Part shown: piece after piece, positions 12,583 to 30,477 of the stretch
How the letters are laid out: the number at the start of each line of letters is the position of its first letter
Numbering within the stretch: the first letter of the stretch is position 1
Source: Verrucomicrobiota bacterium
GTDB lineage: Bacteria; Verrucomicrobiota; Verrucomicrobiia; Limisphaerales; SXTU01
Direction of reading: 5' to 3'
Assembly: GCA_016235545.1 (NCBI GenBank)
Contig: JACRKB010000091.1
Coordinates: 1-34,966 of the forward strand
Length of the DNA: 34,966 nucleotides
Notes under the pieces: generated by a model
Told to the model about the DNA's origin: nothing
Databases searched by the model: none
Seen by the model: the letters and a program-made list of their open reading frames with translations, nothing else
Translations under genes and position numbers: made by a program

Positions 12583-13836
12583 TTACTGCCCGCCCAGGAC
12601 CGTCGGGCCCCCCCTCTCGTCCCCGAACTTCAGCGCTTCGTTGACCAGAATCTCGCCGGTGCGCTCACCAAGGCTGGTGCGAGAGACGTAGGCGTAGCGT
12701 TTGAAGCTCTCGAAGTCCTCCTTCGTGAGGATGTATCCATAGGCGTCGTTGGTCAGGCCAAAGAGCAGGTTGTGTTCGCCGCGCATTTTGCGTTTGAGAT
12801 AGAAGCCGATGTTGGGCAGCGCCTCGCCGGGGATGGTGAGGATCTGCGCGTTGCCGATGTTCACAAGGTTGAACTGCGTCGTGACACTCTCCACGTTCGC
12901 GCCGGCGGCTCCGGGCGTGAGCTTCAGCAGCGCGCGCATCAGCGGCGAGTCCACGGGCAACGTCAGCGTGCGGGCGGCGCAGAAAAGTTTGGGCGAGCCC
13001 TGCACCGGCGCGGCCTGCACGATCCGCAGCGCCTCGCCGGCCAGCAACGTGCCGATGCGCTGGCACTCCGCCCAGGTTCTGGCTTCGCGGCCCTCGGGTT
13101 GGCGATTGTCGGCTGTGACCATGCCGCCTTGCGCGCTGTTCATGAAGATGGCCGTGCCACCGCCCTTCGCGGCGATCTCGTCGCAGAGCGGCCCGATGAG
13201 GTCGGGACTGCAAACCCCGGCGGCACTGCCGATGACTTCGGGATGGATCGCATAGTTGACGAGTGTGGCGAAGGGTTTGCCCAAGGCATCGAGCGCCTGG
13301 ATGACATGGCAGCGCGGGTCGTAGAGCTGCTCGGCATAATAGTTGTAGGCGATTTTCCCCTTGGCCTCGCCAGTCGCAATCCGGAGCTGCGCGGGCTGCA
13401 GTTTCGCAACGGCCTCGTTGATCGCTTCGGCCATGCGGGTGCAGACAATGGCCAGAAACTTGGGATCACTCGACGTTCCACCCTTGCCGTCGGGAAAGCC
13501 GTAGCAATCGGGCGCGCTGTGCGTGTGCGTGGCGCCGATCAGGATGTTCTCCGGCGGAATGCCTTTGACTGCGGCGCGGACCCGATTGCCCAGCACCGCT
13601 GGAAGGCCGAGGAAGTCCGCGCTGACCATCGCGACGCGCGTGCTGCCATCCTCAAACACGAGCGCCCGCACGGTCAGGTCACCCTCCGCGCGCGTGGCCG
13701 GTCGCCCGGCTCCGACACCGCCGCTTACTGGCAACAGCGGGTCAGGCGTGACGACACGCGTTGCAATGCCCGCGCGGAAACCGGTGGCGGCGTCAGCCAC
13801 GCACAGCAAACAGAGGAGGAGGACGAGCGATTTCAT
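12583..13836 (-). CDS. Secreted neutral/alkaline non-lysosomal ceramidase-like protein
   Basis: Signal peptide MKSLVLLLCLLCVADA; FRAGIATRVVTP, IGATHTHSAPD, VNYAIHPEVIG, IPGEALPNIG. Confidence 0.82.
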   Translation of the reverse strand: MKSLVLLLCLLCVADAATGFRAGIATRVVTPDPLLPVSGGVGAGRPATRAEGDLTVRALVFEDGSTRVAMVSADFLGLPAVLGNRVRAAVKGIPPENILIGATHTHSAPDCYGFPDGKGGTSSDPKFLAIVCTRMAEAINEAVAKLQPAQLRIATGEAKGKIAYNYYAEQLYDPRCHVIQALDALGKPFATLVNYAIHPEVIGSAAGVCSPDLIGPLCDEIAAKGGGTAIFMNSAQGGMVTADNRQPEGREARTWAECQRIGTLLAGEALRIVQAAPVQGSPKLFCAARTLTLPVDSPLMRALLKLTPGAAGANVESVTTQFNLVNIGNAQILTIPGEALPNIGFYLKRKMRGEHNLLFGLTNDAYGYILTKEDFESFKRYAYVSRTSLGERTGEILVNEALKFGDERGGPTVLGGQ

Positions 13837-13929
13837 GGCTTGTTGGAAATGTGTTGTGCGGCGAGTAGGTCAGGTGCCGTGTGCTGGCGCAAGTGCGCGG
13901 TATTGAAGCGCCAAGGTTGCCGTGCAAAA

Positions 13930-13959
13930 CGTGCCGGCGATTTGCAATCGCCGACGCTA
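13930..13959. repeat. P1 half copy
   Basis: cgtgccggcgatttgcaatcgccgacgcta; contains the stop codon of the 13957-15264 gene. Confidence 0.75.
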
Positions 13960-15264
13960 TTTCAGTTTCCCCTGCATCTGGAAAACCCACGTCAGCGCCG
14001 TGTTCATCAACTGCTCGCCCGCACCAACCGCTGCGGGCGCGACCTGGTTGTCCGCGCCGTAGCCGCCCTCGGCGGCGGCCTCGATGGTTGGGAAGTATTG
14101 ATGGTAGCCGTTGCTGTAGCCGAAGAAGAACAGCCGCTCCACCCGCGCCCGCTCCCGCAGCCGGAGCGCGTGCTGGCAGAAGAACTCGCCGGACGCTCCC
14201 ACGAGTGCGGTGTCGCCGTTGAGCACTGCGACGGTGAGGCGCGGGCGGATGCCGTCGGCAAATTCATCGGCGAAATTCGCGACCAGCTCGGGGAAGAACG
14301 CGAACGAGTAGCCCAGCCGGATCAGCGGGTTGTTCAAATCGCTGCGCGACTCGAAGCGGAACCGCTCCTCGCGCACGACCAGCGAAGGCTTCGCCACCAC
14401 GGCGGGCTGGAGCGACGCCGCGAGCTTCACGACCTCGCGGGCGAGCGCCTGGCCGAAGCCGACGTGGTCCGCGTTCGTGCCTTTATTGATGGAGAGATCA
14501 CCGGATGCTCCCTGCATGAAGATGGCAGTGCCGCCAAAATCCTTCTCGACCGCCGCCTTCATCGCACCGACGTAGTCGGCGGAAAACTTCAGCGTCTGCG
14601 CCGGGAGACTCGTCGGGTGGCCGGTGAAGTTCACGAGCACGGCGAGCGGCTTGCCCGAGGTGTCATCAAAGCGCATCACGGTCAGCGAGCGGTCCACGGG
14701 CTTGAGCGGGAGCTTCGTGTGCCGGTTGCGATTGAAGCCATCGAGGTCTGCGGCGCCGGTGGCGAATTTTGCCGGGGCAAGTTTCCGGTCCGCCTCGACG
14801 ATGGCGGTGACGATGCCGTCCTCAAGCTGCTGGTAGTAGCGGATGGAAGCATCGAAACGGCCCTTGCCCTTGCCGTCCGCGTCGCTCAGTTCGAGCACCG
14901 GCCCGTGGTGCGTGTGCGAGCCGGCGACCAAGGAGTGCTCGATGCCTGCCTCGGCCTTGATGCGCTGGCGGATGTTCTGGAGGGACTTCTCCGACGGCGA
15001 GCGGCCGAGATCGAGGCCGACGATGGCGAGCTTCTTGTCACCCGCCTGGATGACGACGGCCGCCGCGTGAAGCGTATCGATCGCTCCTGTCGAGAGCATG
15101 TCATGGCGCGCGCCGTATCCCCACATCGGCACCGCCTCCTTCGGTGTGATGTCGCGCTTGGCGGCCCCGGCCTTGAAGACAGCTTCGGCGGCGAGACCTT
15201 CGGAGGCGAGGAACAGACCGGACCCGAGTGTGAGCCAGATGACGCAGCGGCGGCAGGAATTCAT
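13957..15264 (-). CDS. Secreted neutral/alkaline non-lysosomal ceramidase-like protein (paralogue)
   Basis: MNSCRRCVIWLTLGSGLFLASEGLAAEA signal peptide; FKAGAAKRDITPKEAVPMWGYG, AGSHTHHGPVLE, VNFTGHPTSLP, MQGASGDL. Confidence 0.85.
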   Translation of the reverse strand: MNSCRRCVIWLTLGSGLFLASEGLAAEAVFKAGAAKRDITPKEAVPMWGYGARHDMLSTGAIDTLHAAAVVIQAGDKKLAIVGLDLGRSPSEKSLQNIRQRIKAEAGIEHSLVAGSHTHHGPVLELSDADGKGKGRFDASIRYYQQLEDGIVTAIVEADRKLAPAKFATGAADLDGFNRNRHTKLPLKPVDRSLTVMRFDDTSGKPLAVLVNFTGHPTSLPAQTLKFSADYVGAMKAAVEKDFGGTAIFMQGASGDLSINKGTNADHVGFGQALAREVVKLAASLQPAVVAKPSLVVREERFRFESRSDLNNPLIRLGYSFAFFPELVANFADEFADGIRPRLTVAVLNGDTALVGASGEFFCQHALRLRERARVERLFFFGYSNGYHQYFPTIEAAAEGGYGADNQVAPAAVGAGEQLMNTALTWVFQMQGKLK

Positions 15265-15339
15265 GGACCGGATTGTTGCGTGCTGGCGCGCAGTCCGCCA
15301 GCAAACTTCACAGGGCAGTCCATACGGGGGTGCAGCTTG

Positions 15340-15506
15340 GCCAACATTTCTTTCGCCACGGATGGGGATGAGGAAAAGGCAACCCTCCGAGAAGCCGAAC
15401 GCGCACACCAAAAAGCGGTGCCGGACGCGGCAGGCAGCTTCGGGACACTTGCTGCGCTTCCGCGCGTAACCCGTGTTCCATTCGCGGCTCAACTGGATGA
15501 ATCTGG
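15340..15506. repeat. P2 degenerate copy
   Basis: tttcgccacggatggggatgaggaaaaggc...cccgtgttccattcgcggctcaactggatgaatctgg. Confidence 0.8.
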
Positions 15507-17172: not shown

Positions 17173-18729
17173 TCAGTGCCGGAAGTGGCGCGTGCCGGTG
17201 AAGACCATTGCAACCCCGCGCGCGTCGGCGGCGGCGATGACTTCTGGGTCTTTCACGGAGCCGCCGGGCTGAATCGCGGCGGTCGCACCGGCCTCGGCGG
17301 CGGCGATGAGGCCGTCGGGGAACGGGAAGAAGGCGTCGCTGCACACCACGCTTCCCGCGAGCGGGAGCCTGGCCTCGCCCGCCTTCCACACGGCGATGCG
17401 GCTGCTGTCCACGCGGCTCATCTGGCCCGCACCCACCCCGAGCGTGCGGTCGGAGGCGCTGTAGAGAATCGCGTTGCTCTTGAGGTGCTTCACCACGCGC
17501 CAGCCGAAGAGCATGGCCTTCAACTCGGCCTCGCTCGGCGCGCGTTTCGTCACGAGCTTCAGGTCGGTGGCGGTCGTGAGTTTCAGATCGCGCTGCTGGA
17601 GGAGGAAGGACTCGGCCCCGACGCTGCGCACGTCCCACGGCGCGGCGGTGGCGGGGTTCTTGAGGATTTGCAGCAGGCGCAAATTCTTCTTTTTCGTCAG
17701 CACCGCGAGCGCTTCCTCGGTGAACTCTGGCGCGACGATGACCTCGCTGAAAATCTCCGCGATGGCTTCTGCGCACGGGCCGTCGAGCGGCTGGTTCACG
17801 GCGATGATGCCGCCGAACGGCGCCTGCTTGTCCGTGGTGAACGCCTTGTCCCACGCCTCGCGCAGCGTCGTGCCCTGGCCCACGCCGCATGGATTCGTGT
17901 GCTTGAGGATGGCGAGTGTTGGCGCGTCGCCAGTGAACTCCGCGATGAGCGCGGTGGCGGCGGTGAGGTCGAGGATGTTGTTGTAGGAAAGTTCCTTGCC
18001 GTGGAGCTGCTTGAAGTAGTCGGCAAACTTTCCGTAGAGCGCGGCCTGCTGGTGCGGGTTCTCGCCGTAGCGCAGCGGCTGCACCAGTGGCGCGGACACG
18101 ATGAGCGTCTTCGGCAAGCTGACCGCTGATGGCTGTTCGCTGAACGCTTTCTCTAAGTGCGCCGCAATCGCGGCGTCGTAAGCCGCCGTCCGCGCATACA
18201 CCTTCGCCGCCAGCTTGCGCCGCAGCTCCAGCGTCGTCTCGCCCGTCGCCTGCACGAGCGCGGCGACTTCCTCGTAATCCTTCGGGTCCACGATTACGGT
18301 GACGTGGTCGTGGTTCTTGGCGGCGCTGCGGAGCATGGAGGGGCCGCCGATGTCGATGTTCTCGATGGCGTCGTGGAGCGAGACGCCTGGCTTGGCGACG
18401 GTGGCCTCGAACGGGTAGAGGTTCACCACCACGAGGTCAATCGGCGCGATGCCGTGCTGCTTCACGGCCCACTCGTGCTCGGTGTTGCCGCGGATGTAGA
18501 GCAGGCCGCCGTGGACCTTGGGGTGCAGCGTCTTCACGCGCCCGTCGAGCATCTCGGGGAAGCCCGTGTGCTCGGAGATGTCCTTCACAACGAGGCCTGC
18601 GTCGCGGAGCGCTTTGGCAGTGCCGCCGGTCGAGATGAGTTCCACGCCCGCGCCGGCGAGCGTCTGGGCGAACGGGACGAGACCTGCCTTGTCGGAGACG
18701 GAGAGGAGAGCGCGTTGAATCTTGGCCAT
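17173..18729 (-). CDS. purH: Bifunctional AICAR transformylase / IMP cyclohydrolase
   Basis: [41 protein letters not shown]...[15 protein letters not shown]...[14 protein letters not shown]...[12 protein letters not shown]...[53 protein letters not shown]. Confidence 0.97.
18118..18148. repeat. Heptamer tandem repeat inside purH (gctgacc gctgatg gctgttc gctgaac gct)
   Basis: gct recurs every 7 nt at 18118, 18125, 18132, 18139, 18146. Confidence 0.85.
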
Positions 18730-18790
18730 AAAGAGGCGGTGAAAATCCCTGTCTGCAAGCGGCCCGTCAATCGCGCAGTTGGGACTGCAA

Positions 18791-18922
18791 GGTAGGGCGA
18801 GACTCCATCGAGCCACCATTCCAAGCGCAGGGAGCCTGTCAGCTGAACGCTGCGGAGATGAAACTCGCTGTGCTCGCGCCTCCTTCGTCAGCAAATGGGG
18901 CTCGACGGAGTCTCGCCCTACC
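18791..18922. repeat. Palindromic repeat family P4, intergenic copy
   Basis: ggtagggcgagactccatcgagcc ... ggctcgacggagtctcgccctacc. Confidence 0.9.
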
Positions 18923-20012
18923 GGCTCGTCAGCGCCCCCGCCAACGACGCGAGCTGCGCGCGCGTGTGCTCGCTGCTCACCACGAAGCGGAAGAACCCGC
19001 CCTCCGGCCCGCCGGGATACCGGATGAACGGCGGGTGAATCCCCGCCGCCAGCAGCCGCCTTTTGAGCCGCGCCGCCTCCTTCGCCGACACGGGAATCAC
19101 CGGCACGATGGGGCCGGGCGCGTCTGGCAACTCCATTCCACCCGCGCGCAAGCGTTCCTTCAGCCACGCCGCGTTTGCGTGCAGGCGTGCCTGCAAACTC
19201 GGATTCGCGCGGAAGATGTGCAGCGCCTCCAACGCCCCCGCCGCCAGCGGCAGCGGCACGGGCGTCGCACCAGTGAAGCACCGGCTCCTCGCCAGAACCG
19301 CCTCCGCCACCGCGCGACTGCCGACGATGGCCCCGCCAAAAGCGCCGAACGCCTTGCTCAAGGTCACCGTCTGGATCACCCGCGCGTCCTGCACGCCGCA
19401 GTGCGACGGCGTCCCCTGCCCTGCCTCCCCCAGCACGCCAGCGCCGTGCGCGTCATCCACGAGCAGCGCCGCCCTGGCCGGCAACACCGCGAGATACTCC
19501 GCCAGCGGCGCGACCGACCCGTCGTGGGAAAACATCCCGTCCGTGAAGACAATGGGCCGCGCGCCCCGGCCCAGCCCGCGCAATTGCCGCGTGAAATCCG
19601 CCACATCGCGATGCGCGAACGGCACGACCGTCGCCCCCAGCAGCACCGCCGCATCCGCGACGCTCGTGTGGGACCGCGCATCCATCAGGACATGGGTGAA
19701 CTCACCTCGGAGCGCCTGCGCCACGGCGAGGTTCGTCATGTAGCCGTTGTCCACCAGCACGGCGCGCTGCGCATGGAAGAATCGCGCCAACTCGCGCTCC
19801 AGCCGCTCGTAGAGCGAGTGGTTCCCGGTCGTCTTGCGAGAGGAAGCCACGTTCAGCCCGAACGCCTTCAGCCCGCGCCGGACGGCGGCGAGCACGCGCG
19901 GATGGCTGGCGAGCCGGTAGTAATCGCACCCTGCGAAATAGACCAGCCGCCGGCCGCGTCGGCGGACAAAGACCCGATCCACTTGCTGCAACGTCTCGGC
20001 GGTGTGCTTCAT
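18918..20012 (-). CDS. PLP-dependent alpha-oxoamine synthase family protein (BioF/KBL-like)
   Basis: [57 protein letters not shown] (PLP lysine). Confidence 0.9.
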
Positions 20013-20223: not shown

Positions 20224-23154
20224 ATGATCAAGTTCAAAGCCAAAGAGCAGCCCAAGGTCACTCCCCAGCGGAAGGCTGCCGAACAGTTGCTCCAGCAGCT
20301 CAAGCGCACACTTGAGATGGAGGCGGGCCGCGGCAATATCACCATCAACCACTTCCTCACCTCGCGCGGCAGCGAGGACCGCAACGCCTTTGCGCCACAG
20401 ACGCAGCCGGGCACGGGCTTTTACACGCTGGAGGGAGTCGTGGCCACCGGCGGCATGGGCGCAGTGCTCAAGGCGCAGGACAACAATCTTGCCCGCACGG
20501 TCGCGCTCAAGGTGATGCTCAACAGCGCGGACGCGAATGATCAGACGGTCTTCAGCTTCGTGGCCGAGGCGCAGATCACCGGGCAGCTCGAGCACCCGAA
20601 CATCGTCCCTCTCCACGACATCGGCGTGGCCGCCGACGGCACGATCTATTACACGATGAAGCTGATCGAGGGGCGCACGCTGCGCGACATCCTCAAGGAC
20701 ATCCGCGAGGGCAACGCGGACACGATCCAGCGGTTCCCGATTTCGCGCCTGCTGACCATCTTCCAGAAGGTTTGCGACGGCATCTCCTACGCGCATTCGC
20801 GGCGTGTCATCCACCGGGACCTGAAGCCGGACAACGTGATGGTCGGCGAATTCGGCGAGGTGCTGATCCTCGACTGGGGCTTGGCCAAAGTGCTGCCGGA
20901 GCCGGGGCAGGCGGACACGGAGGAGCATGGCGGGGAATTCTCCGGCCCCCTGCCCGGCGCGCCCGGAGGCGACGCGATGGCGACGATGGCCGGGCAGGTG
21001 AAGGGCACGCCAAACTACATGGCCCCCGAACAGGCGGAGGGCCGTGTGGCGGACATTGACACGCGATCGGACATCTACGCGCTGGGTGGCATCCTCTATT
21101 ACACGCTCACGATGCAGCCGCCCGTCACGGGCGCGAACCTCGACGAGATTCTCACGCGGGTCACTTCGGGCGACATCACGTCCCCCAGCTCGTTCAACAG
21201 CAAGCCGATTGAAAACCCATCGGGCAAGACCGCGCCGCACTGCCCGGACGGCACGATTCCCGACGCGCTCTCCGCCGTGGCGATGAAGTGCATGGCACGC
21301 GAGAGCGCGCTGCGTTACCAGACGGTGGAGGAGTTGCAGGCGGACCTCGCGGCCTACCAGGGCGGCTACGCGACGCGCGCACAGGATGCGAACATGTTCA
21401 CGCTGCTGAGGCTGCTGTTCCAGCGCAACAAGAAGGAGGTCTTCATGGCCTTCGGGGCGCTCATCCTCGTCTTCGTCGTCGCGCTCGGCTTTCTGGGCAA
21501 GGTGAAGTTGAGCGAGATCAAGGCGCAGGAAGCGCTAACGAAGGCGAAGGCCACCGTGGCGGAGCTTCGCGAAACCGCGCCCTCCATGGCCGCAGTGGCC
21601 GAGGGCAAGCTGCGGGAGCTCAAGTTCGCCGAAGCGATGACCAACATCAACCAGGCCATCAAGCTCGACGATTCCGTCGCCCGCTTCCACAACATCAAGG
21701 GCAACATTTTCCTGTCATTGCTGGAGATTCAGGAGGCGCGGGAGGCTTTCGAAAAGGCCCGGGAGATTGACACCAAGCTAACTGACGCCATCCGCAGCTC
21801 GGTGCTTTGCGCCGCCATCATCCGGGACAACCCCGACCTGAAGAAACTCAACGACAAGAGCAAGCGCGACATCTACGAGCTCTTCCGAGAGCAGGGGCGC
21901 ATCGAGGAGGCGGGCCGAATCTTCGCGATGGTCGCGGCCACGGACACGCAGGTCGTCGTGGGCTTCCGACGGCAGCTCGCAGCAGCGCAGATCAAGCCGG
22001 AGCTGCTGGAGCGCGATGGATCGGGCCGTTACAGCCTCGACCTCAGCGAGAATCCGGTGAGCAGTCTCGCAGCCTTGCAAAGCATCCCGCTGGCCAGCCT
22101 GAACCTCGCCGGCTGCACCAATGTCTCCGACCTCGGCCCGCTCAAGGGCATGCCGCTGATGAGCCTGAACCTCGCCCGGCTCAACCGCCTCACAGACCTT
22201 GCCCCTTTGAAGGGCATGCAGTTGACAGAGCTGAACCTGAGGAACTGCGACGAGTTGCTCGATCTCGCGCCGCTGGCCGGGATGCCGCTCACCCTGCTGG
22301 ACCTCAGCGACACGAAGATTGTGGACATCAACCCGTTGACCGGCATCAAGCTGGAATGGCTCGACCTGTCTGACTGCAGCCAGGTGCGCGACATCAAGGC
22401 CCTTGCCGGCATGCCGCTGCGGTGGCTCAAGCTCGACCGCACGCGGGTGATCAACATCGGTGCCATCCGCGGCGCACCGCTGCAGTTCATCAGCTTCAAT
22501 GACATCCGCGTCAGCGATATTTCAGCCCTGACGAACATGCCGCTGGTCACGAACCTGATGAGCAAGACGCTGGTGCGAGACATCACGGCGCTGAAGGGGA
22601 TGCGCCTGCAGCACCTCGACTGCTACAAGACGCCGGTGCAAAGCATCGCGCCGCTGGCGGGAATGACCTCGCTGCGGCTGCTGGACTTGCGTGAGACGGG
22701 CATCACGACGATCTCCCCGCTGGCCGGAATGCCCCTCGACGTGCTCAAGCTGGCGCTCACGCAGGTCAGCGACATCGAGGCGCTGCGCGGCGCGCCGCTC
22801 ACAGTGGAACTGGACTTGTCGGAGACACGGGTGGCCAGCCTGGAGCCGCTGCGGGGCGCGCCCCTGCAATACTTGAACCTCTCCAAAGCCCCTGTCAGCA
22901 GCCTCGCCCCGCTCGCAGGGATGCCGCTCAAGGTGCTGCGCATGGACAGCCTGCCGACACAGCCGGACTTGAACCCGCTCTGGGACTGCCAGGAGTTGGA
23001 GCAGCTAGCGATTCCCTTTCCATCCCCCTCGGTCATTGCGCTGCGCCAGCTCCCCAAGCTCAAGCGCCTGGACTACTACGTGCCGTTGGACCTCTGGGAG
23101 CGCTCGAAAACGCCGCCGCAGTTCTGGAAGGACTGGGACGCGCGCAAGCAGTAG
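20224..23154 (+). CDS. Transmembrane Ser/Thr protein kinase with C-terminal leucine-rich repeats
   Basis: GGMGAVLKAQD, VALKVML, VIHRDLKPDNVMV, LDWGLAK (DWG in place of DFG), GTPNYMAPEQ; TM segment VFMAFGALILVFVVALGFL; then about 14 LRRs of the type PLAGMPLxxLxLxxTxVxDIxPL. Confidence 0.93.
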   Translation: MIKFKAKEQPKVTPQRKAAEQLLQQLKRTLEMEAGRGNITINHFLTSRGSEDRNAFAPQTQPGTGFYTLEGVVATGGMGAVLKAQDNNLARTVALKVMLNSADANDQTVFSFVAEAQITGQLEHPNIVPLHDIGVAADGTIYYTMKLIEGRTLRDILKDIREGNADTIQRFPISRLLTIFQKVCDGISYAHSRRVIHRDLKPDNVMVGEFGEVLILDWGLAKVLPEPGQADTEEHGGEFSGPLPGAPGGDAMATMAGQVKGTPNYMAPEQAEGRVADIDTRSDIYALGGILYYTLTMQPPVTGANLDEILTRVTSGDITSPSSFNSKPIENPSGKTAPHCPDGTIPDALSAVAMKCMARESALRYQTVEELQADLAAYQGGYATRAQDANMFTLLRLLFQRNKKEVFMAFGALILVFVVALGFLGKVKLSEIKAQEALTKAKATVAELRETAPSMAAVAEGKLRELKFAEAMTNINQAIKLDDSVARFHNIKGNIFLSLLEIQEAREAFEKAREIDTKLTDAIRSSVLCAAIIRDNPDLKKLNDKSKRDIYELFREQGRIEEAGRIFAMVAATDTQVVVGFRRQLAAAQIKPELLERDGSGRYSLDLSENPVSSLAALQSIPLASLNLAGCTNVSDLGPLKGMPLMSLNLARLNRLTDLAPLKGMQLTELNLRNCDELLDLAPLAGMPLTLLDLSDTKIVDINPLTGIKLEWLDLSDCSQVRDIKALAGMPLRWLKLDRTRVINIGAIRGAPLQFISFNDIRVSDISALTNMPLVTNLMSKTLVRDITALKGMRLQHLDCYKTPVQSIAPLAGMTSLRLLDLRETGITTISPLAGMPLDVLKLALTQVSDIEALRGAPLTVELDLSETRVASLEPLRGAPLQYLNLSKAPVSSLAPLAGMPLKVLRMDSLPTQPDLNPLWDCQELEQLAIPFPSPSVIALRQLPKLKRLDYYVPLDLWERSKTPPQFWKDWDARKQ

Positions 23155-23230
23155 GTGCAGGACGGCAAGCGGTGGATGAAATGGTCGCACGGATGGGCGT
23201 CATCCTCGCGCAGGGCAGCGCGCGGCAACC

Positions 23231-24085
23231 TCAGCACGAATACATGGCGTGCTCGCCCTGGAAGCCGCCGAGCGCGTGGGACCCCTGGGCCGTCATCTCG
23301 AAGTAAGGCTGGAGCTCCGTCGCCGCCGCCTCGCTCAGGAGGCAGAACTGCTTCAACGCCCCGCACACCTTCTCCATGCGGAAGATGAAGTTGACCTGCG
23401 GCCCGATGAGATTGTCCTCGCCCTGCTGCAACGAGCTGTCCATCCGCACCTGCCCGTAATGCAGCACTATGCGAAACTGCATGTTCGTAATCGTCGCCTG
23501 CTGGGCACGGAGCGCGTTGATGGTGGCGGCGATGACCTCTGGCTTGGTGATGTCCATCGGCCAGTAGGCGAGGTAGCCATCGCCAAGGTATTTGTTGATG
23601 TGGCCTTGCGACTTCTCAATGGTCTGCTTGCACGCCAGCACCCACTTGCCGACCATCTGCGCCAGCTCATCCTCGGGCATGGTCTGGCTCATCTTGGTGA
23701 ACTGGCAGATGTCCGCCACCAGCATCCAGCACATGCCCGACTTCGCGGTCTGGTGGGCGGCGGCGATGGTCATCATCGCCTCCTCGCCATCGCCGCCGGG
23801 CGGCTCGCTCGCGCGGAAGACGAGGTTCGTCGTGGAAACCTGGATGCGGTCGTTGTCCTTGAGCTGCGCGGGCATGCGCATCCGCTGGCCGTTGAGGATC
23901 GTGCCGTTGCGGCTGCCAAGGTCCACGATGTAGTAGCCACCGTCGCCCTGCGCGTGGATAATCGCGTGCCGACGCGATACCTCGCCGTCGTTGATCGCCA
24001 GCGTGTTCTCTGGCAGACGCCCAATCGTGCAGGTGCCTTGCAGCGGGAACTGCTCCCCAGAATCCGTTTCCAGCCAGTATTGCAT
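23231..24085 (-). CDS. FHA domain fused to class III adenylate/guanylate cyclase domain
   Basis: FHA: CTIGRLPENTLAINDGEVSRRHAIIHAQ..DLGSRNGTILNG; cyclase: VADICQFTKMS, NKYLGDGYLAYW, GPQVNFIFRMEKV. Confidence 0.9.
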   Translation of the reverse strand: MQYWLETDSGEQFPLQGTCTIGRLPENTLAINDGEVSRRHAIIHAQGDGGYYIVDLGSRNGTILNGQRMRMPAQLKDNDRIQVSTTNLVFRASEPPGGDGEEAMMTIAAAHQTAKSGMCWMLVADICQFTKMSQTMPEDELAQMVGKWVLACKQTIEKSQGHINKYLGDGYLAYWPMDITKPEVIAATINALRAQQATITNMQFRIVLHYGQVRMDSSLQQGEDNLIGPQVNFIFRMEKVCGALKQFCLLSEAAATELQPYFEMTAQGSHALGGFQGEHAMYSC

Positions 24086-24206
24086 TGCCTGTCGTTCGAT
24101 TGACTTGTCCAACGCCGCACGCGGAGGTGAAACCCTTTCCTCGACCGGCGGCTGCGGTAGGAAACAGAAGTGCCGGGACAATTTCCAGCCAAATTCTTTG
24201 CCTCGT

Positions 24207-25877
24207 TCAAGGATGCGCCCGGACGAAAACTTGGAGCGACACGGAAATCGCGGGCTCAACGGGGCGCCAGCGTGAATCGCGCGCGAGGGACTCGGCCTGC
24301 TGCGAGCCGCGACGCGACACCACGACCCGCGCGCCCGCCGACGCAAACTCCGCAGGGCCAGCCAGCACGTCGTCCCCAAGCCATCGCTCGCCAAGGAGGA
24401 ACGCGGTGTAAATCCCCGAGCGTCCGCCGGGCAGAAGTCCGCTCCCGGCGAGCGGGCCGGGCTGCCCGCTGGCCTGCAACCGCGCTGCCAGATCGTGAGC
24501 CACATGGCTGGCCTGATTGGGAATTCCAGCCAGCGCGGCCGCGAGCCAGATCATCGCCGGCACTGCAAAGGAATAGTTCACTACACCAAAGCCCGCCCGC
24601 ACCCGCGCGGACCAGCCCCACGCCCCAACGGCGAGCACCCACAGAAACGGCAGCGCCGGAAAAAAATACCGGTTGTCCTCCGCCATCACAAAGAACGGCA
24701 GATACAACGCGCCCAGCGCGACCACCGGCACCAGAGCCCAACACCAGCGCTGTCGCCGCAAGCACCGCCTGCATTTCACCATGCAACCGCCCGCAATCAA
24801 CACTGCCAGCCCGCTGATTCCCAGCACGTCAAACGTCCCCAGCCATCGCCGCCACAGCGGCAACTCCGCTCCGGTCAGCCACGCACGCCACGGGTTCAAC
24901 CAGTCCCAGCAAATGCCGATGTTGTCTCCGACCACCGCGAGTTGATGCCGGAAGTTCTCACCGCCCGCGAATGGCGACCACCGCACATACGCCATCCGCG
25001 ACGGCTCCTCCCACTGCGTCACACGTCCCGCGTCCGGCTGGTGCAGGGTCGTCATTGCCCGATGATGACCTGCCTGCTCGCCCGGCCCTGCAAGCGCGTG
25101 CGCGATAGGCCCCGTCGTTGAGAAGGTGAACTGCCCGTAGTGCAACGACAGCACTGCGATCCACGGTGCCGCGACCAGCGCAGTGCCGAGCCATGCCAGC
25201 CCCAGCCGCGCCGCCAGCTCCGCGCGCAACTCCCGCCGCCCGCTCATCGCAAGGACTGCCAGCCCCGCCGTCGTCAACAGCGCCAGCGGGAGCGCCACCG
25301 CCTTCGCCAGATACGCCAGGCCCCACCAAACACCCACCGCGATGGCGTGCCGCGCGTGCCGGCGACTTGCAATCGCCGCCCCCTCTCGTTTCGCGTCCGG
25401 CAGGACGGCAACTGCAAGTCGCCGGCACGGGGCAAGAAACATTTTCACCGTCGCGCTCACAGCCAACGCCACCAGCCCCGCCAACAACAAATCCGGCGTG
25501 ATGTGCCGCACCGACCAGAACACCGACCACACAGCCGCGATGCAAGCGCCCGTCCTCAGCGCCACGTTTGGGAGCCGGAACGAGCGGAACACCGACAACG
25601 CCCCGGCGAGAAACACCACTCCCGAAAACGCCATCACCACACGCGCCGCCACCAACGGGACCGCGCCCGCCTTCAGCAGCGGCACCATCAACCAGCTCAC
25701 GAGCGGCCCCCAATAGCCCGTCACCGCCAGCTCGGTCTGTCCGGCTGCGTAGTATCCAGCGATGCGGCAGTAAGCCACCGCATCGGGATTAAGCTGGTGC
25801 AGATTTCGCCACGCCGCGACCGCGAGCAGCACGGCCTGCACGGCGAAGAGCCAGCGAAGTTGATGGCGGACATTCAT
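24207..25877 (-). CDS. Multi-TM glycosyltransferase-like membrane protein (GT39/PMT/ArnT-type)
   Basis: LHQLNPDAVAYCRIAGYYAAGQTELAVTGYWGPLVSWLMVPLL, HITPDLLLAGLVAL, GLAYLAKAVALPLALL, YLPFFVMAEDNRYFFPALPFLWVLA. Confidence 0.8.
   Translation of the reverse strand: MNVRHQLRWLFAVQAVLLAVAAWRNLHQLNPDAVAYCRIAGYYAAGQTELAVTGYWGPLVSWLMVPLLKAGAVPLVAARVVMAFSGVVFLAGALSVFRSFRLPNVALRTGACIAAVWSVFWSVRHITPDLLLAGLVALAVSATVKMFLAPCRRLAVAVLPDAKREGAAIASRRHARHAIAVGVWWGLAYLAKAVALPLALLTTAGLAVLAMSGRRELRAELAARLGLAWLGTALVAAPWIAVLSLHYGQFTFSTTGPIAHALAGPGEQAGHHRAMTTLHQPDAGRVTQWEEPSRMAYVRWSPFAGGENFRHQLAVVGDNIGICWDWLNPWRAWLTGAELPLWRRWLGTFDVLGISGLAVLIAGGCMVKCRRCLRRQRWCWALVPVVALGALYLPFFVMAEDNRYFFPALPFLWVLAVGAWGWSARVRAGFGVVNYSFAVPAMIWLAAALAGIPNQASHVAHDLAARLQASGQPGPLAGSGLLPGGRSGIYTAFLLGERWLGDDVLAGPAEFASAGARVVVSRRGSQQAESLARDSRWRPVEPAISVSLQVFVRAHP
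25355..25430. repeat. P1 palindromic element inserted in frame within the glycosyltransferase CDS
   Basis: cgtgccggcgacttgcaatcgccg...actgcaagtcgccggcacgg; arms match the intergenic copy 1147-1221. Confidence 0.92.
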
Positions 25878-25896
25878 GGTGTTCGTATCCCGGGAG

Positions 25897-25978
25897 AGTG
25901 ATTAGTAATTAGTGATTAGCCAGTGCCAGACCATCCGGCTGACGACCGATTCACTGCTCACTAATTACTAATCACTTC
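25897..25978. repeat. Inverted pair of heptamer arrays (agtgatt agtaatt agtgatt agccagt ... reverse)
   Basis: agtgattagtaattagtgattagccagt at 25897-25924 and ttcactgctcactaattactaatcactt at 25950-25977. Confidence 0.9.
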
Positions 25979-26641
25979 CGCTCCTCCCCTCCTCCCCACC
26001 CACATCAGCTTCCCCCAGCCGGTGAATTTCCGCTCCGTCTCGAAGTTTGCTTCCAGGCAGCGCAGCACCACTTCCGGCTGCCGCAGCCACTGCTCGTAAG
26101 TGTGGCGCTCGCCCTCGATCATTTCCGCCAGAGCATCCAGCTTGTGGAAAATCCTTCGCAGCCACGGCTGACGGCACGCGGCGTGAACCACGGATAGAAA
26201 AGGCGTCGGCCACGGCTCGACCACGACCAGCCGGCCACCCGGACGCAGCACCCGCGCAGCTTCCTTCAGCACGCGCTCCAAATCATCCGGCAACACCGCG
26301 AGATGATGCAAGCCACCCTGCACCATCAAGATGTCCTGGCTCGCCGACGCGAACGGCAGCGCACGGCAGTCCGCGCAGTGACGCCCGTGCTCCGGTGGAC
26401 ACAAAGCCAGCAGCCGCTGCGAAACGTCCACGCCCTCCAGCCGGTGGAAGCCCAGCCGCGCCAGCGCCCGCACGCCATTGCCCCGTCCGCAGAACAGCTC
26501 CGCAACCGCCGCGTCGCGCGGCCACTCACGCGCGCCCAGTCTCACCAGCCGCCGCGTGAACTTCGCTATCTCCTGCTCCGGCGTCTCAAACCGTAGATAC
26601 GCCGCCTCCCACGCTTCCGCTGTGTTGTCAGCGGCGTTCAC
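25961..26641 (-). CDS. Class I SAM-dependent methyltransferase
   Basis: GTG start overlapping the upstream TGA; AVAELFCGRGNGVRALARLGFHRLEGVDVS, QGGLHHLAVLPDDLERVLKEAARVLRPGGRLVVVEPW. Confidence 0.85.
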   Translation of the reverse strand: MNAADNTAEAWEAAYLRFETPEQEIAKFTRRLVRLGAREWPRDAAVAELFCGRGNGVRALARLGFHRLEGVDVSQRLLALCPPEHGRHCADCRALPFASASQDILMVQGGLHHLAVLPDDLERVLKEAARVLRPGGRLVVVEPWPTPFLSVVHAACRQPWLRRIFHKLDALAEMIEGERHTYEQWLRQPEVVLRCLEANFETERKFTGWGKLMWVGRRGGAEVISN

Positions 26642-27246
26642 GCGGAATCCTCCGGCGTCAGGCGAGCCAGCAGGTGGAGTCGCCGTCCGAACACCAAGTC
26701 GGCCAGCCACGGATACAACCCCAAGTCGCCGCGCAATTCCTCGATCCGCAAATCCAGCGCCGCGAACATCTCCCGCCACTGCGCCTCGGTGCGGTAGTTG
26801 TATGGCAGCGCGACGCCGTGCGACGCGTTGCCCACCCAGTCCATCAGCCGCAGCGTGGGGCCGGCCATCCAGCCATCGAGAGTGTGATCTTTCACCACCA
26901 CCATCCGCGCCACGCGGCGGGCTTCGCGAAGCAACGCCTCCGGGGCTTCCGTGTGATGCAGCACATCCACCAGCAGGGCCACGTCGAAACACCCGTCGCC
27001 GTGGGGAATCGTCCTGCCGTCGAACGCCACGACAGGAATTCGCGCCGACGGACGCACCAGCACATCCAGGCCGGAGATTTGCACGTCAGGGCGCAGCTCG
27101 GCGATGGCCGCCGCCAGAGCGCCGTCGCCGCAACCGACATCCAGCACCTTGCCACCCTGCGGCAGCCACGCAGCGATGAGTCCGGCCAGCACACGCACAC
27201 GGCGCGGATGGACCAGCCCTGTGTGCAGTTGTTGCAGCGGTTTCAT
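26638..27246 (-). CDS. Class I SAM-dependent methyltransferase
   Basis: GGKVLDVGCGDGALAAAIAELRPDVQISGLDV, FDVALLVDVLHHTEAPEALLREARRVAR. Confidence 0.9.
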   Translation of the reverse strand: MKPLQQLHTGLVHPRRVRVLAGLIAAWLPQGGKVLDVGCGDGALAAAIAELRPDVQISGLDVLVRPSARIPVVAFDGRTIPHGDGCFDVALLVDVLHHTEAPEALLREARRVARMVVVKDHTLDGWMAGPTLRLMDWVGNASHGVALPYNYRTEAQWREMFAALDLRIEELRGDLGLYPWLADLVFGRRLHLLARLTPEDSA

Positions 27247-27271
27247 GTCGGAGGCTTGCTGCGCGCCGTCT

Positions 27272-28465
27272 TCATCGGCGATACGAACCCAGCACCGCGA
27301 CGAAGAAGCTCGCCAGCACGGTTTGAAAACCCAGCGCCGTCAGCGTCACGCCGGGAATCACCCATCGCATCGTGTGCGCGTAATCCAACCGGCCGAAACC
27401 TGCCTCCCGCCATTGCAGCACCGCCGCCAACAGCAGCGCGACGCCCGCGAACAGCGCCACGACGCCCAAGACAAGGCCTCGTTCGAGCGAGAGAACCTCG
27501 CGCAGCCAGCCGAGCAGTTCCGTTTCGGGTAAAAATCCTTCCCGCGCTGCCAGCGTCCGCGCCAGCCAGCCGAACAGCACGGCTTGATACCCAACCGTCA
27601 TCGCCAGGCTCGCGAAGAGCAGCGTGTGCGCGTCGAACGTCGCACCGAAAAGCGTCAGCCCCGGCATCGCCACGCCGAAGCCCAGCGCGCCCAGCGCCAC
27701 CAGCAGCAAGCCCGGATAAACGAACAGCCAGCGCGGGCTGCAAATCAGGAAGAACCGCAGCGTCCGCCAGCCGTCGCGGAACGTGCGCAGATGCGGCGGG
27801 TGCGCCGTCCGCCCGTCACGATGCAGCGTGATGGCCACCTCCTCAATGCGCGCCCCGCGCAGGCTCGCCTTGATGAGCATCTCCGTGGCAAACTCCATCC
27901 CCTCGCAACGCAGGTCGAGCGCGGGAACGAGCTCCCGCCGGAAGCCGCGCAGCCCGCAGTAAATGTCATTCACTGGCACGCGGAACATCCGCCGCGCCAG
28001 CGCTGAGAAAAGCGGGTTGCCCAGCCAGCGGTGCGACAGCGGCATCGCCGCAGGTTCAATCGTCCCGCCCCCCGCCGGCAACCGGCAGCCCTGCACGAGG
28101 TCCGCTCCCGCGCGCAGCTTCCCGACGAACGCGCCGAGCGCCGCGAAGTCATAGCTGTCATCCGCATCGCCCATGACGACGAACCTCCCACGCGCCGCAG
28201 CGATGCCGCCGCGCAACGCGTTTCCGTAGCCACGTTCCGCCACCGCCACCACGCGCGCACCGAGGCTGGCCGCAATGCCGGGCGAGCCATCCGAGCTGCC
28301 ATTGTCCGCCACGAGCACCTCACCGGAAACCGACTGCTCGCGCAGGAAGCGCCGGGCCTTCTCGATGCACCTGGGCAACGTCTCCGCCTCGTTCAAGCAC
28401 GGCATCACGATGGACAACTCGACGGCGGAGTCATCAGCCGGGCCGGAGGTGGAAGGACTGGGCAC
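27272..28465 (-). CDS. Family 2 glycosyltransferase with C-terminal TM domain
   Basis: ELSIVMPCLNEAETLPRCIEKA, VLVADNGSSDGSPGIAASLGARVV, GRFVVMGDADDSYDF, DIYCGLRGFRRE. Confidence 0.92.
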   Translation of the reverse strand: MPSPSTSGPADDSAVELSIVMPCLNEAETLPRCIEKARRFLREQSVSGEVLVADNGSSDGSPGIAASLGARVVAVAERGYGNALRGGIAAARGRFVVMGDADDSYDFAALGAFVGKLRAGADLVQGCRLPAGGGTIEPAAMPLSHRWLGNPLFSALARRMFRVPVNDIYCGLRGFRRELVPALDLRCEGMEFATEMLIKASLRGARIEEVAITLHRDGRTAHPPHLRTFRDGWRTLRFFLICSPRWLFVYPGLLLVALGALGFGVAMPGLTLFGATFDAHTLLFASLAMTVGYQAVLFGWLARTLAAREGFLPETELLGWLREVLSLERGLVLGVVALFAGVALLLAAVLQWREAGFGRLDYAHTMRWVIPGVTLTALGFQTVLASFFVAVLGSYRR

Positions 28466-28508
28466 GCGCGCGTTTTACCACGGCCAGGCGTGTGGCGACA
28501 GCCGATAC

Positions 28509-28602
28509 TGAGGGCGCATCTCAGTTTCTTGCAGGCGGAATGGTGCGAGCGATCCAGTTGGGCCGCTCCTCCTGCTCGCAATCCTGATCCTAATCCTGCT
28601 CC
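28509..28602. repeat. Repeat family P3 copy
   Basis: tgagggcgcatctcagtttcttgcaggcggaatggtgcgagcgatccagttgggccgctcctcctgctcgcaatcctgatcctaatcctgctcc. Confidence 0.88.
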
Positions 28603-28688
28603 AGTGCGGACGGCCTCACAGACAGAGATTGCGCTTGCTCCGACCCCTGCCCGACGTAATCCTTTGCGGGCAACCACAAGTTGCAAAC

Positions 28689-28773
28689 GCGCACGTGGCG
28701 GAATTGGCAGACGCGCTAGATTCAGGTTCTAGTGAGTAACATCATGCAGGTTCAAGTCCTGCCGTGCGCACCA
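28689..28773 (+). tRNA. tRNA-Leu (anticodon CAG), CCA encoded
   Basis: Acceptor GCGCACG/CGTGCGC plus ACCA; anticodon arm CTAGA-TTCAGGT-TCTAG; long variable arm; GGTTCAAGTCC T-arm. Confidence 0.95.
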
Positions 28774-28821
28774 AATTTTTTCCGAGCGACCCGTTCAGCG
28801 ACCGCCACGACCGCACCCGTT

Positions 28822-30477
28822 ATGGGATTGAACATCCGCAAAGCAGCACCCGAGGACGCCGGCGCCTGGATAACACTCGTCAAGGCGACGCTGGGCGACG
28901 ACCACCCCAACAAGCAGATTTACGATCCCGCCTGGGTCGCCGCCGAACTCGGCTCCGGCCTGCCCGGCAACGAGACCTGGGTGGCCGAGGACGGCGGCAA
29001 GATTCAGGCCAGCATCTCCGTCCTGGGCGCGGTGACGGCGAACGAAAACCCCGTCTGCAACCTCGGACGCAATCTCTTCCACCCCTCCAGCCACGCCGAC
29101 GGCTCGGCGGACGCGCTGCTCCAGAAGCTCACCGAGCTGGCCATACTGCGCCGGCAGATGTGCGTGACGCGCGTGCTGGCGTCTGACAACGCGCAGCAGC
29201 TGCTCATCGAGAAGACAGGCTTTGTCTGCGTGGGCTTCCAGCCGCTCAAGCACATCACCAAGACGCGGGAGGAAGTGCTTTTCTACGTGAAGCGCGCGCG
29301 CTCCATGAGCGCCAACCGCCTGCCGCTCTCGGAGTCGCTGCCGCAGATCGGCGAGCTGGCGACGGCGGCGTTGCTGCACCTCAACATCCCCGGCGCGCCC
29401 GCCATCCGCGATGGCGGCACAGGCTACCCGTTGCAGACGGATGTGGTGGTGGCTGCGGCGAGCGAGGACGATTACAAGGCCGCCCGAGAGGCTGTGGCCC
29501 CTCAAAACCCGCCGCAGGAAATCTCCAGCAACTTCAACTGGGGCGCCGGTTTCATGCGCGTGGCCTCCACGGTGACGCTGCGCGCGATGCTCTGCAGCCG
29601 CGAGGACAAAGTCGTCGCCGGCATGCTCTACCTCTACGATGAGCAGGACCGCTGCGTGCGCATCATGGATGGATTTTGCACGGACAACCTCTCGATGGGA
29701 GCGGTGCTCCAGCATGTCTCCAAGGCCGCGCAGGCGGAGTTGAGCGCGGCCTACGTGGAGATGGACCTGCTCGCCAGCGCGGTGAAGCTCCTCATCAGCG
29801 CCGAGCAGCTCGGCTTCGTCCCCGCCGCCTACCTTCCCGGATTCCACAAGGTCCACGACGGCACGATGGACCTCGTGAAAATGGTGAAGCTCAACCAGAC
29901 CTACAGCATCGAGCACGACAAGCTCACCGCCCATGCGCTGGTCATCGTCAACGTCATCAAGCACTGCCTTCAGGACCAGAGCATCGGCGTCGCCATCATC
30001 AACCTCCTGCGCGACCTCGAGCTTTTCAAAGGCCTGGGCGATGGCGAGCTGCGCAAGGTCGCGCGCCTCTTCACGCAAAAGCTCTTCCGGCCCGGTGAAA
30101 AAATCTTCGGCAGGGACGATGCCGGCAACGAGGCCTACGTCGTCATGCGCGGGCAGATTGAGATCCTGCTGGAGGAGAACACCGCCCCCATCGCCTCGAT
30201 GGGACAAGGGCAGGTCTTCGGCGAGCTGTCCTTTCTGGACGGCGGCAAGCGCGGCGCGATGGCGATTGCCAAGCAGGCCAGCATCGTCCTCGTGATGCAG
30301 CGCCCGCAGTTCTTCGAGATGACGCAGCGAGAGCCAAACCTCGGCCTGGCAGTCATGCGCAACATCGCCCTTGAGCTGACCGTCCGCCTGCGCCGCACCA
30401 ACGCCGCGCTCTCCACCAAGAAATCTGCGGCGGTGTCTCAATTGCGAGGCGACATCATCGAAGGCTCAAGCCGGTAG
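28822..30477 (+). CDS. GNAT-like N-terminal region(s) fused to a C-terminal cyclic nucleotide-binding domain
   Basis: MGLNIRKAAPEDAGAWITLVKATLGDDHPN..., VLASDNAQQLLIEKTGFVCVGFQPLKH (GNAT-like); DLELFKGLGDGELRKVARLFTQKLFRPGEKIFGRDDAGNEAYVVMRGQIEIL...GQGQVFGELSFLDGGKRGAMAIAKQAS (CNB with FGE...R phosphate cassette). Confidence 0.82.
   Translation: MGLNIRKAAPEDAGAWITLVKATLGDDHPNKQIYDPAWVAAELGSGLPGNETWVAEDGGKIQASISVLGAVTANENPVCNLGRNLFHPSSHADGSADALLQKLTELAILRRQMCVTRVLASDNAQQLLIEKTGFVCVGFQPLKHITKTREEVLFYVKRARSMSANRLPLSESLPQIGELATAALLHLNIPGAPAIRDGGTGYPLQTDVVVAAASEDDYKAAREAVAPQNPPQEISSNFNWGAGFMRVASTVTLRAMLCSREDKVVAGMLYLYDEQDRCVRIMDGFCTDNLSMGAVLQHVSKAAQAELSAAYVEMDLLASAVKLLISAEQLGFVPAAYLPGFHKVHDGTMDLVKMVKLNQTYSIEHDKLTAHALVIVNVIKHCLQDQSIGVAIINLLRDLELFKGLGDGELRKVARLFTQKLFRPGEKIFGRDDAGNEAYVVMRGQIEILLEENTAPIASMGQGQVFGELSFLDGGKRGAMAIAKQASIVLVMQRPQFFEMTQREPNLGLAVMRNIALELTVRLRRTNAALSTKKSAAVSQLRGDIIEGSSR

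Follow-up and report, generated by a model that had tools for sequence, protein, structure and literature searches.

Three genes in a stretch of DNA from a verrucomicrobial bacterium raise the question of whether serine/threonine phosphorylation, cyclic-nucleotide synthesis and protein acylation are connected there in a single pathway. The stretch, referred to here as the window, is 34,966 nucleotides long and forms a single contig in a metagenome-assembled genome of 5.0 Mb from the order Limisphaerales (Verrucomicrobiota). The genes encode a membrane Ser/Thr kinase, a class III nucleotide cyclase with an FHA domain and a protein that combines GNAT folds with a cyclic-nucleotide-binding (CNB) domain. 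An earlier note had located the three genes and their domains, and profiles and fold comparisons confirm both (Table 1). The start codons and the gap of 76 nt between the convergent kinase and cyclase genes (23155-23230), also given there, are right. The mechanical ORF of the cyclase extends to 24505; the start at 24085 is the correct one, since the relatives of the cyclase start at the same position. All three are real genes because almost every genome of the genus keeps their orthologues, at 66-96% identity.

Table 1. Positions of the kinase, cyclase and GNAT-CNB genes, their domains and their neighbours in the window
Feature	Position	Strand	Basis or remark
Membrane Ser/Thr protein kinase with TPR/LRR C-terminal region, 976 aa	20224..23154	+	ORF, domain profiles, orthologues
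Kinase catalytic domain, residues 68-364, all catalytic motifs	20425..21315	+	Profile, motifs
Single TM segment, residues 406-424, between kinase domain and TPR/LRR	21439..21495	+	Hydropathy
LRR region of the kinase	22063..23151	+	LRR_4 E 2e-22
FHA-class III nucleotide cyclase, 284 aa, tail to tail with the kinase	23231..24085	-	Profiles, relatives' starts, fold
Class III cyclase domain	23234..23749	-	Profile, fold, residues
FHA domain	23837..24031	-	FHA profile E 3e-20, 72.8 bits
Co-directional neighbours of the cyclase, glycosylation-type gene set	24207..28465	-	Domain profiles, synteny
Membrane protein with multiple TM segments, resembling a glycosyltransferase only in position and make-up	24207-25877	-	
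Two SAM methyltransferase frames	25961-26992, 26638-27246	-	
GT2 polyprenyl-P sugar transferase-like	27272-28465	-	
Join of two blocks that are apart in relatives	28466..28688	.	Synteny
tRNA-Leu(CAG)	28689-28773	+	48 nt upstream of the GNAT-CNB gene
Tandem-GNAT/cyclic-nucleotide-binding protein, 551 aa, separate block	28822..30477	+	Profiles, fold
CNB domain	30082..30330	+	cNMP_binding E 3.5e-14, 53 bits

The first gene encodes a bacterial membrane Ser/Thr kinase of the Hanks type, as seen from its Pkinase profile match (121.6 bits against a cut-off of 31.7, E 5e-35) and its catalytic motifs. The latter comprise GGMGAV (GxGxxG), VALK, HRDLKPDN and APE, with the DFG motif replaced by the variant DWG, and a conserved threonine lies within the activation loop (ATMAGQVKGTPNYMAPE). 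Orthologues are present in all 11 genomes of the genus and are 66-85% identical. The LRR region is predicted to be on the far side of the membrane, where, if this topology holds, it would form the sensor or interaction part of the protein.

The FHA domain of the cyclase contains the GR, SxxH and NG residues of phosphothreonine binding; the residues predicted to make up this site (R23, S37, R38, H40 and N60) are invariant in all 32 homologues. The Guanylate_cyc Pfam profile alone matches the cyclase domain weakly (19.0 bits, cut-off 21.9). A profile of the relatives, compared with solved adenylyl cyclases, gives a clear match, with an E-value of 6e-15 to bPAC. The AlphaFold model (pLDDT 86) matches the FHA domains of EmbR, GarA and OdhI and the adenylyl cyclases OaPAC, bPAC, CyaB, CyaC and Ma1120, and its best Foldseek match by E-value is the FHA-GGDEF protein DgcB. 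The fold, two metal-binding aspartates and the transition-state Asn and Arg place the enzyme in class III: Asp125, Asp169 and Arg236 are kept in 32 of 32 homologues and Asn232 in 30. Lys165 is kept in 29 of the 32 and is Gln in the others. ATP-specific class III enzymes pair the Lys with Asp, Thr or Ser. The second base-specifying position, where Asp and Thr are usual and bPAC has an aligned Thr, is Ser in 16 and Asn in 14 of the 32, Asn being the residue of this genus. The natural reading of the sequence is an active cyclase that probably uses ATP. A dead homologue was rejected in view of the kept metal and transition-state residues.

The co-localisation of the kinase and cyclase genes extends to relatives. 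The two are convergent neighbours in nine of the 11 genus genomes (G000-G006, G009 and G010), and the other two (G007 and G008) have both genes at non-adjacent positions. In a further family, f48, where the cyclases are 66-69% identical to that of the window, the pair is convergent in all three sampled genomes that carry the cyclase (G057, G094 and G118). Beyond the genus and f48, 28 homologous FHA-cyclase loci, 29-48% identical, were examined. At six of them a Ser/Thr kinase gene lies in the region, and in four of these, from four families (f4, f14, f18 and f45), the kinase is the direct neighbour: at 105 nt downstream on the same strand in G027, at 82 nt in G127, and in G054 and G013. One gene separates the kinase from the FHA-cyclase in G045 and at the second copy in G027 (f36 and a second f18 locus). 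The C-terminal parts of these neighbouring kinases vary, being an FGE-sulfatase domain, WD40, LRR with an FHA of its own, or no named domain. In G013, the cyclase comes after kinase-LRR genes, two of which have an FHA-like N-terminus of their own. Locus L216 of that genome (G013:C22, 1-13351) consists of successive kinase-LRR genes, the contig end truncating the first, followed by an AAA_35-FHA-cyclase of the same cyclase family.

The four direct kinase neighbours compare with about 0.29 expected in 28 loci (Poisson P 2e-4), where the expectation assumes about 5 kinase-like candidates per Mb, a first-look count, a density of about one gene per kb and independence of the loci. The frequency of any kinase in the region, 6/28 versus 1/20 control regions, is not significant alone (Fisher 0.12). 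The convergent pair in two families and the repeated, independent pairing with other kinases give good comparative support to the kinase to FHA-cyclase step that the earlier note had proposed.

The kinase and the FHA-cyclase are read here as a two-protein signalling pair, with a probability of roughly 0.6, in which phosphorylation would lead to FHA binding and to cyclic-nucleotide synthesis. The kinase would sense something via its membrane-anchored TPR/LRR part and phosphorylate threonines, either its own or those of a partner. The soluble cyclase would bind the resulting phosphothreonine through its FHA domain, and this binding would recruit or rearrange the cyclase dimer and thereby alter the cyclic-nucleotide output, presumably by activation rather than inhibition. 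The product would most likely be cAMP. Against the pair, the two genes are convergent and cannot form one operon. The kinase is present and the cyclase absent in G039. The separated genes of G007 and G008, the many genera that have the FHA-cyclase but no orthologue of the kinase, and the Asn of this genus at the second base-specifying position also count against it. As a unit, the pair is credible, conserved and open to testing.

Several known systems come close to the pair. Bacterial FHA genes cluster with kinase genes (PMC1262709). The FHA fold and residues of the window cyclase are those of GarA, EmbR and Rv1747 of M. tuberculosis and OdhI of C. glutamicum, whose effectors are a metabolic regulator, transcription factor or transporter, whereas the effector in the window is a class III cyclase. 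Myxococcus Pkn2, a kinase with a guanylate cyclase-like domain, is a precedent for kinase-cyclase coupling (PMC1262709). Both Pkn2 and the TOMM kinase/cyclase fusion (TIGR03903) combine a Ser/Thr kinase and a class III cyclase in one system, as the window pair does, but they are fused in one polypeptide, whereas the window has two proteins tied by gene order and the FHA domain. TIGR03903 matches the kinase part only (113 bits, cut-off 706). A limited literature search found no described FHA-class III cyclase with a partner kinase, which is no proof of novelty.

The precedent for FHA control of a nucleotide cyclase is DgcB of Bdellovibrio bacteriovorus, whose FHA domain acts as a consensus phosphopeptide sensor and controls the enzyme (Meek et al. 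2019, PMC6733907). Like the window protein, DgcB has an N-terminal FHA domain joined to a nucleotide cyclase domain; unlike it, DgcB has a GGDEF domain, which makes c-di-GMP, and takes the phosphopeptide from its own N-terminal region. That DgcB reads its own tail opens another reading of the window cyclase: its FHA domain may autoregulate in the same manner or read phosphothreonines of other kinases, the adjacent kinase being a functionless inherited order. Genomes of this order offer many kinase-like candidates (the same count of about 5 per Mb), the FHA-cyclase is widespread, occurring in many genera that have no orthologue of the window kinase, and adjacency is lost in the two genus genomes mentioned above. 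Inherited order, however, poorly explains a repeated pairing with kinases of varied architecture in several families, and a self-peptide of the DgcB kind has little room because the 284-aa protein has almost no tail before its FHA domain. This reading is doubtful.

A different partner is suggested by the glycosylation-type genes, which are on the same strand as the cyclase, the cyclase lying 121 nt behind the last of them. This set is kept as a block with the kinase and cyclase in eight genus genomes, the source included, and in G118 of another family. The cyclase might thus belong with the set, and the module might control envelope glycosylation, a proposal that is compatible with the kinase-cyclase pair. 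The link to the set is looser than that to the kinase, since the kinase-cyclase pair persists without the glycosylation genes in G003, G094 and G057, and control of glycosylation is considered unlikely. Other genes near the pair include purH (AICAR transformylase/IMP cyclohydrolase), which lies on its kinase side in the window (17173-19281) and beside the cyclase in G057 (L116, 7535-9088). Two adjoining minus-strand ORFs of the window (12583-15492) resemble, weakly to moderately, the N-terminal domain of neutral/alkaline ceramidase and are possible paralogues.

The position of the third gene was examined by comparing each ORF of the window with 53 regions from relatives. The relatives at L167, L173, L178, L188 and L206 are publicly labelled Klebsiella pneumoniae or Akkermansia muciniphila, names that look wrong. 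The comparison divides the window into two separate syntenic blocks. The first contains the kinase-LRR gene and the FHA-cyclase, tail to tail, the multi-TM membrane protein, the methyltransferases and the GT2 gene; the second contains tRNA-Leu(CAG), the tandem-GNAT/CNB gene, tmk (thymidylate kinase) and cysS. None of the relatives examined has the two blocks together, and they are joined only in the source genome. Where the sequence of a genus member continues for several kb past the GT2 gene, the tRNA-Leu/GNAT-CNB block is absent there and is found on another contig. In G106, a single-contig genome, 536 kb lie between the cyclase and the GNAT-CNB gene. The proximity of the blocks is a trait of the source genome only and may be an assembly join. 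The conservation of a three-gene neighbourhood, on which the earlier note had suggested its chain be checked, is not found, and a conserved three-gene module is rejected on synteny.

In the GNAT-CNB protein of the second block, the phosphate-binding cassette of the CNB domain has the required Glu and Arg, and G467, E468 and R477 are invariant in 32 of 32 homologues; cNMP binding is predicted from these residues. Pfam detects GNAT weakly (19.5 bits, cut-off 27), and AlphaFold and Foldseek give a tandem GNAT (2wpw, E 6.7e-9) together with the CNB domain. Searched as a profile against solved structures, the tandem-GNAT part had no significant match (best E 0.16). In the first GNAT, the acyl-CoA loop is approximately H/Y-x-D-G-x-A, with an invariant G94, mostly H/Y and no R/Q, compared with the canonical R/Q-x-x-G-x-G/A. 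In the clavulanic acid pathway, the protein 2wpw likewise has two GNAT folds in tandem but is without a CNB domain and has 13% sequence identity. The mycobacterial cAMP-dependent Pat (NF058543) likewise has CNB and GNAT in one protein, but there the CNB domain comes first and is followed by one GNAT, whereas in the window protein two GNATs come first and the CNB domain last. Membership in the Pat family was rejected, the NF058543 match (13.9 bits, cut-off 460) covering the CNB part only. The GNAT-CNB family occurs in 46 of 146 genomes of the order, a few of them detected by one protein part only, and in 2 of 388 genomes of a phylum-wide sample searched with the GNAT part, the source included. 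By these counts the family is all but confined to the order.

The full linear pathway would run from the kinase to the FHA-cyclase, whose cNMP would act on the CNB domain in the GNAT protein, and from there to protein acylation. It is consistent with the intact phosphate-binding cassette and with a co-occurrence of cyclase and GNAT-CNB above chance, in 20 of the 146 order genomes versus 9.8 expected (Fisher 2e-5) and, at family level, in 10 families that have both (p=0.04), neither figure being corrected for phylogeny. Against it, the two genes belong to different blocks elsewhere among the genomes examined, at the distance noted for G106; the GNAT-CNB gene is present without a cyclase of the window type in 26 genomes, and the cyclase without GNAT-CNB in 11, the genus member G006 included; and the acyl-CoA loop is only partly canonical. 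A census by family and protein searches found nine loci with class III cyclase domains and several other CNB proteins in the source genome, so nothing marks the window cyclase as the source of the cNMP for GNAT-CNB. The pathway as a whole is improbable: the kinase-cyclase half of the earlier proposal is supported by the comparison of genomes, and the GNAT-CNB step, located in a separate block, is not supported as part of it. The GNAT-CNB protein does not appear to be a dedicated target of the window cyclase, although it may respond to a cNMP.

An unexpected association of the GNAT-CNB gene is that with the tRNA gene. At 37 of about 46 informative loci (about 80%), from many families, tRNA-Leu(CAG) lies 19-169 nt upstream on the same strand (for example, L009-L018, L065-L087 and L196-L206), and outside the genus or small groups the remaining neighbours vary. 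In the window, a scan for promoters and terminators near the tRNA and the GNAT start found none, and nothing resembling a terminator separates the two genes. The simplest reading is co-transcription. That the gene is read from the tRNA-Leu transcription unit and encodes a cNMP-gated enzyme, whose two GNATs act on or with leucyl-tRNA like aminoacyl-tRNA-dependent transferases, is speculative and highly improbable, simple co-transcription or inherited gene order being more likely; if it were true, a second messenger would control tRNA-dependent modification in Limisphaerales.

A three-gene pathway read from a single window can thus stem from the joining of two unrelated syntenic blocks. What the first block offers is the kinase-cyclase pair. 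Ser/Thr kinase signalling and cyclic-nucleotide signalling in bacteria are usually studied apart, and the genomes of the host order are rich in kinases. If the proposed pairing is true, a phosphothreonine-reading cyclase that repeatedly teams with varied membrane kinases would be a simple wire, open to testing, between both systems.
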